In this document: positions 13,125-47,470 of the stretch, piece by piece
How the letters are laid out: every line of letters begins with the position of its first letter
Numbering within the stretch: position 1 is the stretch's first letter
Origin: Acidobacteriota bacterium
GTDB taxonomy: Bacteria > Acidobacteriota > Vicinamibacteria > Vicinamibacterales > 2-12-FULL-66-21
Direction of reading: 5' to 3'
Length of the DNA: 62,205 bases
Assembly: GCA_003222675.1 (NCBI GenBank)
Contig: QHWT01000052.1
Span: 1-62,205, forward strand
Notes under the pieces: model-generated
What the model saw: the letters and a program-made list of their open reading frames with translations, nothing else
Told to the model about the DNA's origin: nothing
The model's database searches: none
Program-made: the position numbers and the translations under genes

Positions 13125-13203
13125 TCGTGGCTTCCGCCTTCCGCCTTCGCGCGAAGCGCTTCGGCGGACCGCCGTAGCCTCGGCGGAGGCTGGTCAGGCG
13201 GAA
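13125..13203 (-). repeat. 79-bp palindromic repeat, copy A
   Basis: This copy differs from the one inside ligA (45960-46038, opposite strand) at two of 79 positions. Its centre contains inverted GC-rich arms around CGCGCGAAGCGCTTCG. Read on the minus strand it is open and would encode [18 protein letters not shown] upstream of the radical SAM gene. Confidence 0.85.
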
Positions 13204-13210
13204 GTGCCAC

Positions 13211-40898: not shown

Positions 40899-42980
40899 AT
40901 GTCCCGGTTCTACCTGACGACGGCTATCGACTATGTGAACAGCCGTCCCCATCTCGGCACCGCGTACGAAAAGATCACGGCGGACGCGATCGCGCGCTAC
41001 AAGCGGCTGTCGGGCGTAGAGACGCTGTTCGTCATGGGCAACGACGAGCATTCGCAGAACGTCTTCCGTCGCGCGCGCGAGCTCGGGATGAACCCGCTCG
41101 AGTACTGCGACCTGATGGAGCGCGAGTTCAGGAACGTCTGGGATCATCTCGAGGTGTCGTACGATGATTTCATCCGGACGACCCAGCCGCGGCACCGGCA
41201 GGCGGTGCAGGAACTTGTGCGCCGCATCGCCGCCGCAGGCGATGTCTACGAAGGATTCTATGAGGGTTGGTACTGCATCGGGTGCGAGGCGTTCAAGCAG
41301 GACAAGGATCTCGTCGATGGCAAGTGTCCGCTGCACGGACCGGTAGAGTGGATCAAGGAGAAGAATCATTTCTTCCGGCTGTCGGCGTATCGAGACAAGC
41401 TCCTGCAACATTTCAGCGCGAACCCGGAGTTTCTCGAGCCGGACGTGCGTCGAAACGAGATCCTGCGGCTGCTCGAAGCCGGCCTCGAAGACATTTCGAT
41501 CAGCCGGGCCGGGCAGGCGTGGGGCATTCCGCTGCCCGATGATCCGAACAGCGTCGTGTATGTCTGGTTCGACGCGCTGATCAACTACGCGGCGGCCGTT
41601 GGTTTCGGGACCGACCAGCCATTGTTCGATCGCTGGTGGCCCGCGAGCCTCCATGTGATCGGCAAGGACATCACGCGCTTTCACACCGTGATCTGGCCCG
41701 CGATGCTCATGAGTGCAGGGATCGCACTGCCGCGGCAGGTCTTCGGCCACGGCTTCATGACTGTCGACGGACAGCGCATGAGCAAGACGCTCGGCAACGT
41801 CGTCGATCCGTCCGACGCCGCGACACGATTTGGCGTGGACCCGCTCCGCTTGTACCTGATCAAGGAGATCACGTTCGGCGGCGATGGCGATTTTTCGTGG
41901 CAGCGGTTCCAGGAGCGCTACAACGTCGACCTCGCGAACAACCTTGGCAATCTCGTGAGCCGGATCGCCGCAATGGCGGAGAAATATCGCGGCGGCCGCA
42001 TCGCGCCGGCCGGCTCACCCGGCCGGCTTGCAGAGGTCGCCACTACAGCCGTCGGGGACTATCGCCGGCTGATGGACGCGTTCGCGCTCGAGGGTGGCGT
42101 TGCTGCCGCGTTCAGAATCATCGACGCCGCGAACGAATACATCGCGGAGACGGAGCCATGGGCGCTGGCGCGCGACGAGCGGAACGCCGATCGGCTCAGC
42201 CAGGTGCTGTTCGACGTGGCGGAGGGCGTTCGGGTCGCGGCGATCATGCTTCTGCCGATGATGCCGAAATCATCGGCGGAGATCCTGCGGCGCGTCGGCG
42301 ATCCGACGGCACACGATCGGCTGCGACTCGATGCGGCGAAATGGAGAAACGAAGGGGAGCGCGTCCTTCAAAAGGGCGATGCGCTGTGGCCTCGCACGGA
42401 ATCGCCATCCACCACCAAACCCGACCCGGACATCGGGCGGAGCTCCAGTAGGCCCCACCTTCCGCCTTCGCGTGAAGCTTCGGCGGACCGCCGTAGCCTT
42501 GGCGGAGGCGGTCGGGTCGGGCATGCCACGAATAAGCAAGATCGGAGCAGGAGCAAAACGTTGGCAGATAGACCAAACGAACCAACAGCATTACCTACGA
42601 CGGCGGCGGCAGCGGCGCCCCCTGTGCCAGCGGTGCCGGCCGCGAGCGGCGACCAGCGCATCTCGATCGACGACTTCATGAAGATCGATCTGCGCGTCGC
42701 GAAGGTGATCGCGGCGGAAAAGGTACCCAACTCACGCAGGCTGATAAAGCTGCACATCGATGTCGGTACCGAGCACCGCACGCTGGTCGCTGGCATCGGC
42801 GAGGCCTACGAACCGGAACAACTCGTCGGCCTGACGATAGGAATCGTGTTCAACCTCAAGCCCGCGAAATTGATGGGCATCGAGTCGAACGGGATGATTC
42901 TGGCGGCCAGCCCCGAAGGCGGGAAGCCGACGCTCGTGAGCTTCGAGAGTGACGTGCCGCCGGGCTCGCGCATCCGGTGA
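40899..42980 (+). CDS. metG: Methionyl-tRNA synthetase with C-terminal tRNA-binding domain
   Basis: 693 residues. The HIGH-type motif is HLGTAYEKI near residue 18, zinc ligands appear in CIGCEAF (about 126-129) and a later CPLH, VYVWFDALINYAA is conserved, and the KMSKS-type loop is RMSKTLGNVVDP near 292. Residues ~585-693 form the EMAP-II/Trbp111-like domain (DDFMKIDLRVAKVIAAEKVPNS). The linker of ~75 residues (about 510-585) includes a 79-bp-family repeat (42459-42516) read as [18 protein letters not shown] and is low-complexity. Aminoacylates tRNAMet; the domain set suits a homodimer. Confidence 0.96.
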   Translation: MSRFYLTTAIDYVNSRPHLGTAYEKITADAIARYKRLSGVETLFVMGNDEHSQNVFRRARELGMNPLEYCDLMEREFRNVWDHLEVSYDDFIRTTQPRHRQAVQELVRRIAAAGDVYEGFYEGWYCIGCEAFKQDKDLVDGKCPLHGPVEWIKEKNHFFRLSAYRDKLLQHFSANPEFLEPDVRRNEILRLLEAGLEDISISRAGQAWGIPLPDDPNSVVYVWFDALINYAAAVGFGTDQPLFDRWWPASLHVIGKDITRFHTVIWPAMLMSAGIALPRQVFGHGFMTVDGQRMSKTLGNVVDPSDAATRFGVDPLRLYLIKEITFGGDGDFSWQRFQERYNVDLANNLGNLVSRIAAMAEKYRGGRIAPAGSPGRLAEVATTAVGDYRRLMDAFALEGGVAAAFRIIDAANEYIAETEPWALARDERNADRLSQVLFDVAEGVRVAAIMLLPMMPKSSAEILRRVGDPTAHDRLRLDAAKWRNEGERVLQKGDALWPRTESPSTTKPDPDIGRSSSRPHLPPSREASADRRSLGGGGRVGHATNKQDRSRSKTLADRPNEPTALPTTAAAAAPPVPAVPAASGDQRISIDDFMKIDLRVAKVIAAEKVPNSRRLIKLHIDVGTEHRTLVAGIGEAYEPEQLVGLTIGIVFNLKPAKLMGIESNGMILAASPEGGKPTLVSFESDVPPGSRIR
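42459..42516 (+). repeat. 79-bp-family palindromic repeat inside metG, copy C
   Basis: Same sequence family as 13125-13203 and 45960-46038, here with small deletions and in the opposite orientation relative to the host frame compared with ligA. The core CTTCGGCGGACCGCCGTAGC is identical in all three. Confidence 0.88.
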
Positions 42981-43165
42981 ATGCGAGCGATCACCGCGAG
43001 CGGGTCACGACACCGGAGCGGGGACGCGGCCGGAGCGGCGCGAGCCGCGAAGCGTCAGCGTAGCAGAGCACGCCTGGCGGGGTGCAGGGACCCCGCCCGA
43101 TTCAAGCGAAGCGGGCCCCGCGAGGTGACGTGTAGGGGTCCGCGGGGCGAAGCCCCCGGGTCTAG

Positions 43166-43960
43166 ATGATCGATTCCCACTGTCATCTCGCCGACGAAGC
43201 GTTCGAGGCGGATCTCGACGAGACGATCGCACGTGCGACCGACGCGAGTGTGTCGTCGGCGCTCTGCATTCTCTCCGCCGGTGACGAGGCAGAAGGGGCC
43301 CGCGCGCGCCGCGTGCGCGATCGGTGGCCGGCCGTTCGTTTCGCGACCGGCGTGCACCCGCACAGCGCCGGGACGTTCGACGGCCGCGCCAGCGAGGCCG
43401 CGCGCGTCGCCCAGGCACACGCGGCGGCGTTCGAGGCGTGCGCGATCGGCGAAATCGGCCTCGATTACCACTACGACTTCGCGCCGCGCGCGGTGCAGCG
43501 CGACGTGTTCGTCGCGCAGGTGCAACTCGCATTGACGCTGGACCTCCCCATCATCATTCACACGCGCGAAGCGACCGACGATACGTTCGCCGCTCTGCGT
43601 GAGGCCGGAGCCGGCGTGCGCGGCGTCTTCCATTGCTTTACCGGCGACGCGGCGATGGCAAGGCGCGCGCTCGACATGCACTTCCACGTGTCGTTCGCCG
43701 GTATCGTCACGTTTCCGAAAGCGGCGGACGTGCGCGAGGCGGCGAAGATCGTCCCGACCGATCGGCTGCTGATCGAAACGGACAGTCCGTATCTCGCGCC
43801 GGTCCCGCATCGCGGCAAGCGGAACGAACCGGCGTACGTGGCGCGCGTGTTCGAGGCGATCGCCGCGCTCCGCGACGAACCGACCGCATCGATCGAGGCC
43901 GCCGTCGCGCGCAATTTCGACGCGCTTTTCCGTCCAAAGTCAGTGCCCGCAAGGGCTTAG
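43166..43960 (+). CDS. tatD: TatD family metal-dependent hydrolase
   Basis: 264 residues. Metal-binding residues are visible in MIDSHCHL, ACAIGEIGLDYHYDF, IIIHTREA, FHCFTGD and LLIETDSPYLAP. TatD-type enzymes are TIM-barrel exonucleases/DNases of the YcfH/YjjV group. No Shine-Dalgarno sequence is obvious upstream; the preceding 185 nt are GC-rich with small hairpins. Confidence 0.93.
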   Translation: MIDSHCHLADEAFEADLDETIARATDASVSSALCILSAGDEAEGARARRVRDRWPAVRFATGVHPHSAGTFDGRASEAARVAQAHAAAFEACAIGEIGLDYHYDFAPRAVQRDVFVAQVQLALTLDLPIIIHTREATDDTFAALREAGAGVRGVFHCFTGDAAMARRALDMHFHVSFAGIVTFPKAADVREAAKIVPTDRLLIETDSPYLAPVPHRGKRNEPAYVARVFEAIAALRDEPTASIEAAVARNFDALFRPKSVPARA

Positions 43961-44003
43961 CGCGTTGACACTCCAGTCCGGAGTCCGATATGGTGAGCCG
44001 ACA

Positions 44004-44050
44004 AGTAACGAGGCTCCGCCTGAAACGAGTGGAGGCGGAGCTTCGTTACT
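44004..44050. repeat. 18-bp inverted repeat before the polyprenyl synthase
   Basis: AGTAACGAGGCTCCGCCT (44004-44021) pairs with 44033-44050 with one mismatch around an 11-nt loop. Acts plausibly as a terminator for tatD. Confidence 0.75.
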
Positions 44051-44180
44051 GGATCCGCGGCCGCTGTTGCGGCGGCGGCTAAGCCGTGGTTGCACGGCGA
44101 AATTTGACGCGTTCGAACACATTCAGGCCGTGCAAGCACGGCTAGTCATCCCCTTGAGCGACACCACGCAGAATCCTCCC

Positions 44181-45161
<981 letters not shown>

Positions 45162-45195
45162 GCGGCTCATGACTCACGGCTCATGCCTCGTGGGC

Positions 45196-45257
45196 GCCGG
45201 GTCTGAAGACCCGGCCTACAGTGCTGTGCACGTGTAGGGCGGACCTTCAGGTCCGCC
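45196..45257. repeat. Two perfect 9-bp hairpins before ligA
   Basis: GCCGGGTCT-GA-AGACCCGGC at 45196-45215 and GGCGGACCT-TC-AGGTCCGCC at 45238-45257. They are near-related stem-loops in tandem, bounded by CTCATGA words. Confidence 0.8.
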
Positions 45258-45265
45258 GTTCTTGA

Positions 45266-47470
<2,205 letters not shown>

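Follow-up and report, generated by a model that had tools for sequence, protein, structure and literature searches.

The closest described systems are the REPs with GTAG heads and the REP-associated tyrosine transposases (RAYTs) linked with them (PMC3733652, PMC2817692). As far as the sections of these reports drawn on here extend, the elements described below resemble GTAG REPs in having a GTAG or GTGG head, a stem of 8–9 bp and, in the minimal form, a TY loop, in being present in many copies and, for the minimal type B REP in a congener, in adjoining a RAYT gene. Intragenic REPs are already known from 2013, including copies in a DNA ligase and in tRNA synthetases, as here (PMC3733652, in the part considered). 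The loop is different: our elements carry a conserved cassette of approximately 50 nt that is common to many arms, whereas the longest complementary loops in the considered part of PMC3733652 are ≤27 bp (Bradyrhizobium GTAG-14). Rickettsial palindromic elements, as treated in the same portion of that report (PMC3733652), are likewise palindromes that occur in frame within genes whose protein products are probably functional, but most copies here are not intragenic by our test and their minimal forms are GTRG-headed REPs. In the open-licence literature, we found neither this core sequence nor one conserved loop cassette on many REP stems described.

Elements in the window and their class

The window, that is, the whole stretch of 62,205 nt that was analyzed, contains the following features.

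40899–42980 (+): metG ORF, methionine–tRNA ligase with a C-terminal tRNA-binding domain, 693 aa
42448–42522 (+): REP with a loop cassette in metG, 75 nt, with a GTAG head, an imperfect outer stem of 8 bp and a cassette of about 50 nt at the apex
42448–42451 (+): GTAG head tetranucleotide of the metG REP
42452–42459 (+): 5′ arm of the metG REP, GCCCCACC, pairing at 7 of 8 positions with the 3′ arm
42478–42497 (+): 20-nt core, inside the cassette of the metG REP
42515–42522 (+): 3′ arm of the metG REP, GGTCGGGC
42549–42553 (+): Shine-Dalgarno-like AGGAG before the in-frame internal start
42561–42563 (+): in-frame TTG, proposed as the internal start from which the tRNA-binding part is translated, with comparable starts in relatives
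45275–47470 (+): ligA ORF, NAD-dependent DNA ligase, 731 aa
45959–46036 (−): type A REP with a loop cassette, within ligA in antisense orientation
46091–46114 (+): second REP in ligA, a minimal form of type A with a CTGG head, in inverted orientation to the ligA cassette REP
45196–45219 (−): minimal type B REP, GTAGGCCGGGTCTTCAGACCCGGC, upstream of ligA
45234–45257 (+): minimal REP, GTAGGGCGGACCTTCAGGTCCGCC, inverted partner of the REP at 45196–45219
13127–13204 (+): type A REP with a loop cassette, not intragenic by our test

The 20-nt core, CTTCGGCGGACCGCCGTAGC, is in frame in metG at 42478–42497 (+). The same core is found within the ligA ORF at 45985–46004 (−), in the orientation opposite to the coding strand, and a third copy lies at 13159–13178 (+). 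A search of the window with up to three mismatches gives six matches, against 0.03 expected from dinucleotide shuffles; since the core is nearly palindromic, these are three places, each found on both strands. In the whole genome (7.16 Mb), the core occurs exactly in 13 places and its reversed control in none. The metG element scores 79.7 bits (E 1.6e-18) against a covariance model built from 21 copies, the metG copy itself being among them, and is also found by blastn (E 4.9e-17) with an 82-nt query modeled on the other two window copies. An Rfam search of the region 42000–46600 gives no matches at E ≤ 1. The preliminary description had reported a repeat shared by metG and ligA in opposite orientations and in frame in both, and the coordinates and translations agree with this. 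Its span in metG, 42459–42516, lies within the element but covers only a part of the full 42448–42522. It had also named the outcome that would undo the claim, namely a chance GC-rich likeness in an ancestral metG linker. The region is indeed GC-rich and the linkers of relatives are low in complexity. However, the exact 20-mer at 13 places with no reversed match and three exact copies in the window refute this reading, and among the metG linkers of relatives compared by eye the element is present in only one, that of G003, a genome of another genus in the same family. We regard a chance likeness as practically impossible.

The covariance model gives 74 matches in the genome, many of which are the two strands of one palindrome. 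We used 43 places of cassette elements at E ≤ 1e-4 (48 rows minus four reverse-strand duplicates and minus C136:75876-75940); this number is a lower bound, because the first pass scored 150 of 10903 candidates. With stricter filters at 1e-4, the element is present in 31 of 60 genomes, this one included.

The aligned copies form a common palindrome of approximately 75–80 nt with two types of ends. Type A ends are GTGG-CTTCCGCCT ... AGGCGGAAG, and type B ends are GTAG-GCCGGGTCT ... AGACCCGGC; the metG arms, GCCCCACC/GGTCGGGC, are a relative of type B. The cassette, running from TTCCGCCTTCGC to CTTCGGCGGACCGCCGTAGCCTTGGCGGAGGCGGTYAG over about 50 nt, takes the place of the short REP loop. The metG hairpin (42446–42522) has a predicted folding energy of −45.9 kcal/mol (z −3.60). 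The ends also occur without the middle: pattern searches of the genome give 75 exact type A matches (in two of which the arms differ in an S base) and 85 exact type B matches, with none for the reversed controls. Most of these minimal REPs have a TY loop, with few exceptions, and TTYA in most. This abundance of both ends without the middle indicates that the metG element is a REP whose short loop has been replaced by the cassette.

Several features expected of RAYT-type REPs are found. A GTAG or GTGG head stands beside the stem in metG (GTAG), in ligA (GTGG) and in 67 of 86 paired copies among the matches listed. Against an expected perfect or near-perfect stem of 6–13 bp, the ligA cassette REP has a perfect stem of 9 bp and the metG copy pairs at 7 of 8 positions. 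The copy number is high, with 75 and 85 minimal REPs and at least 43 cassette places, and inverted pairs are present, both in ligA and among the 75 type A matches, nine pairs of which start no more than 100 nt apart. The very short loop (TY, CMA) is found in most minimal REPs but not in the metG copy, though some of the REP families described have longer loops, so that a short loop is not a strict requirement (PMC3733652, in the part considered). In contrast, the many in-frame intragenic copies expected of a Rickettsial palindromic element are not seen: 4 of the 43 copies pass a strict but rough test, or about six with domain evidence.

Insertion sites in metG and ligA

MetG scores 744 bits against its NCBIfam model (cut-off 598), and its tRNA-binding part matches Trbp111 and MetRS beta structures. 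In Aquifex, metG is an alpha/beta gene pair. The layout around the insertion should be noted. Of 60 metG loci given, 16 were unparsed, some being contig-end fragments. Among the 44 parsed loci, both parts are in one frame in 42 and the sequence is open between the parts in 40; one exception, L055, is misanchored and actually in frame and open, and stops between the parts are found in three relatives (L067, L068, L070). An in-frame start preceded by a Shine-Dalgarno-like site is present in 42 of the 44 loci, the window's included, and such a site precedes 46 of 102 start codons in metG loci, against 12% of 2261 other codons. This arrangement would fit an alpha/beta pair of the Aquifex kind that was fused while keeping its internal start, judging from sequence comparison. 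The REP lies just before the predicted internal ribosome-binding site and start, and it probably occupies what used to be a spacer between two genes rather than a normal linker of a protein. The term "metG linker" in the preliminary description is thus right as to the position between the catalytic and tRNA-binding parts, but probably not as to the nature of the site, given the starts in 42 of 44 loci. The metG copy would have landed in what was a spacer at the boundary of the two parts and would now be read through in frame.

LigA scores 852.9 bits against NCBIfam (cut-off 369). Thirty ligA loci were taken, and the loop after YQLV is 17–30 aa in 23 of the 26 measured. Long loops with REP-derived sequence are found in this genome (G000, 66 aa), in its congener G001 (94 aa) and in G003 (47 aa) (L106, L107, L108). 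In our genome, the loop contains the antisense type A cassette REP and the inverted minimal type A REP, and in G001 it contains a pair of GTAG-headed minimal type A hairpins, one on each strand. The two pairs may share an origin, since both have one REP per strand. In G003, the loop contains an antisense cassette element that has the arms GCCCGACC/GGTCGAGC, lacks a GTRG head and is translated in a different frame. On the DNA ligase structure 2owo_A (E. coli LigA), the loop falls in the stretch from residue 227 to residue 238. The ligA copy would sit in an adenylation-domain loop tolerant of extra residues.

Further in-frame REPs are observed in a QueA-like ORF (L039:707-1966), a BPTD_3080-like restriction endonuclease (L148:54-3101), an N6-methylase-like ORF (L017:649-3075) and an E2 acyltransferase (L031:502-2448). 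The insert in the QueA-like ORF falls between residues 91 and 93 of 1yy3_A. A copy in a YfhO/pilin frame (L019), apparently a read-through junction, was excluded from the intragenic count.

RAYT genes and the loop cassette

In the congener G001, a 165-aa protein truncated by the contig start (P0003) scores 114.9 bits against NF047646, the model of REP-associated tyrosine transposases (cut-off 80). Four GTAG hairpins lie within approximately 110 nt at and after its stop codon, three of them exact type B and one a variant. We inspected 50 Y1-transposase loci (31 and 19 further). Seven other loci (G006, G008, G016, G022, G024, G042 and G046) stand beside several GTRG hairpins of other sequence, and all seven match P0003; among the remaining loci, no more than single hairpins and one pair without a recognized gene occur. 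A RAYT beside a cassette-form REP was not seen.

A search of our genome with P0003 at 1e-8 gives no matches. Its own two Y1 transposases (L044 and L045) score 53.4 and 72.2 bits against NF047646, below the cut-off of 80, and lie on contigs other than that of the window. As movers of the REPs they were rejected, no type A or B REP being found within 1.5 kb of them. In the L044 frame, peptides of the VTLT type recur by eye, as though it contained internal repeats. Across 60 genomes, element number shows no clear association with RAYT presence: P0003-like matches at 1e-8 are found in 9 of 18 genomes with at least five element matches and in 14 of 29 genomes with none, and strong matches (about 1e-28) in 7 of the 18 versus 7 of the 29.

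From the anatomy of the elements and the genes linked to them, we infer that the cassette REP was moved by a RAYT acting in trans. The REP would have spread as a non-autonomous, single-stranded hairpin that is cut and joined by the RAYT, which may have been active at some earlier time or whose gene may now be lost or unassembled. The preliminary description had proposed mobility independent of a transposase in the window. The repeat is dispersed and the genome's own Y1 genes are on other contigs, in agreement with that proposal, but the observation may be better read as action of a RAYT in trans.

The cassette itself is widespread. An exact search of public genome contigs with the core gives at least 108 stretches. 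Of the 108 listed, 105 bear acidobacterial names (with Sulfopaludibacter, Luteitalea and Terriglobia counted as such), two are labeled Acidimicrobiia and one Bifidobacterium. The last three contigs (L253, L314, L300) may be misbinned or reflect transfer. Of the cassette copies, 114 of 122 (109 outside copies among the matches listed and 13 of our genome) were anchored on the left edge. In these anchored copies, conservation is 1.6–1.8 bits at the CTT before the cassette and ≤0.7 in the seven columns preceding it. The loop-proximal 8-nt arms pair: among the matches listed, at least 7 of 8 positions are paired in 86 of the 114 copies and all eight in 59, compared with 13% (maximum 21% in 200 shuffles) and 3%, respectively, when partners are shuffled. 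By a looser measure, 8/8 pairing is found in 47 of 94 outside copies among the matches listed, versus 5% shuffled. The same test is weaker in the 13 exact-core copies of our genome (six at 8/8, shuffled 26%), because few arm types are present there. The arms of the 67 GTRG-headed copies comprise at least 30 strings, or at least 28 after register shifts are merged; merging one-base neighbors gives, among the matches listed, at least 14 groups greedily and five by single linkage.

These observations bear on the origin of the cassette, which may be a mini-element that nests itself in the loops of REPs already present or else an old constituent of long REPs. Entry into existing loops would account for one cassette on at least 28 arm sequences (at least 14 with one-base neighbors merged), for the presence of minimal REPs sharing an arm with cassette copies in 7 of 18 assemblies (pieces of each being searched, with single-piece assemblies left out), for a junction that lies at the loop centre (CTT^YAG or, equally, CT^TYAG) and for the core being shared, by eye, with bigger palindromes that have no head. 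However, the identical picture would arise if long REPs had lost the cassette and their arms had evolved fast, and gradual arm change is conceivable since single linkage joins the arms into five groups. In addition, 11 of the 18 assemblies show no minimal partner in the pieces searched, and an empty and filled pair of one and the same REP is not proven. We consider the nested origin a serious candidate, at somewhat less than an even chance. More tentatively, we propose as a speculative model that the cassette is a gene-less element residing at the REP loop centre (TT^YA), that it passes among more than a dozen Acidobacteriota stems by RAYT strand transfer at the CT of the loop or by conversion, and that it has in this way entered essential genes and may be retained there for its structure.

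Two described systems are relevant to this model. In Marinomonas, the loop of REP Mb is TTNA, like the TTYA of most minimal REPs here, and the T, T and A are needed for cutting by the enzyme (PMC8266576, in the part drawn on). In cassette REPs some 50 nt separate the TT from the YA, so RAYT recognition may be lost or changed. A REP as the target of another element would have its parallel in REP-targeting insertion sequences (PMC1525189, in the section considered), though the cassette differs from these in being too short for a gene and in lying at the loop centre.

Larger head-less palindromes containing the core, over 100 nt by eye, are observed in several acidobacterial MAGs (L235, L236, L255, L269, L296). 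In one MAG (L309, 4484–4944), four core copies at a spacing of 147 nt form an array of cassette palindromes.

Probable survivorship, coding compatibility and conservation of the metG hairpin

We consider it likely that the metG segment is a RAYT-type REP with a cassette that spread in trans, landed in a former spacer and is in frame by survivorship, despite a mismatched outer stem, a loop unlike the typical short REP loop and third positions that seem too conserved for a passenger. The in-frame state of the intragenic copies would reflect the loss of others rather than evolution of the element toward coding. The preliminary description had instead suggested selection for coding-compatible insertion, as in a protein-coding palindromic element. 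What speaks for such selection is the presence of in-frame copies, in both orientations, in metG, ligA and the QueA-like, BPTD_3080-like, N6-methylase-like and E2 acyltransferase ORFs; however, selection on essential genes also leaves in-frame survivors. The six-frame translation proposed with that suggestion gives what base composition gives: the type A consensus has four open frames, or three when the base before AGG is T, while its shuffles average 3.88 and 2.87, respectively, and the mean for 76-nt segments drawn at random from the window is 4.07. Five frames are open in the metG copy, versus 3.34 shuffled (P 0.07), but as a survivor in a gene it is a biased case. In a strict intragenic test by codon usage, 4 of the 43 placed copies pass and 39 fail; metG and the E2 acyltransferase copy (L031) failed the threshold and were counted in on domain evidence. 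This tally is rough because the test is weak (coding windows, mean 0.16 and 5th percentile −0.21; other frames, mean −0.14 and 95th percentile 0.17). The ligA loop of G003, moreover, reads a related element in another frame. Selection for coding compatibility is thus not supported, and we judge it very improbable.

The conservation of the metG copy is harder to square with a passenger. G003 has a REP at the same metG place, on the same strand and in the same frame, with GCCCGACC where our genome has the 5′ arm GCCCCACC. Between the two, the third-position identity of the element is 0.846, which none of 577 domain windows of 26 codons reaches (maximum 0.808), and synonymous differences are found at 4 of 21 sites in the element versus 205 of 359 in the alpha part (Fisher p 0.001). 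Together with the strong predicted hairpin (z −3.60), this is what one would expect if the hairpin were kept as a DNA or RNA structure that adjusts how stable the message is or how the tRNA-binding part is translated. On the other hand, the comparison comes from one genome pair, both G001 contigs ending in or after the metG linker, and the all-position identity of 0.872 is reached by 6% of the 577 windows. Within the hairpin, the G003 copy differs from ours. The same pattern would result from a late parallel insertion or from conversion, and further GTAGGCCCGACCT starts are found in both genomes (seven in G000 and six others in G003), though these are pattern matches and so candidate REPs. Constraint, parallel insertion and conversion are all possible causes of the conservation; a kept structure we hold to be rather unlikely.

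The metG case can separate two views of intragenic REPs, namely tolerated passengers and kept structures. The ligA loop, REP-derived in three genomes and with other arms and a different frame in one of these, documents how REPs have repeatedly entered an essential gene. Should the cassette pass from one REP family to another, REPs would be modular, with separate histories for stem and loop, and one could examine directly which of the two a RAYT requires. If the probable internal start is used, metG would yield a free tRNA-binding subunit in many of these bacteria.
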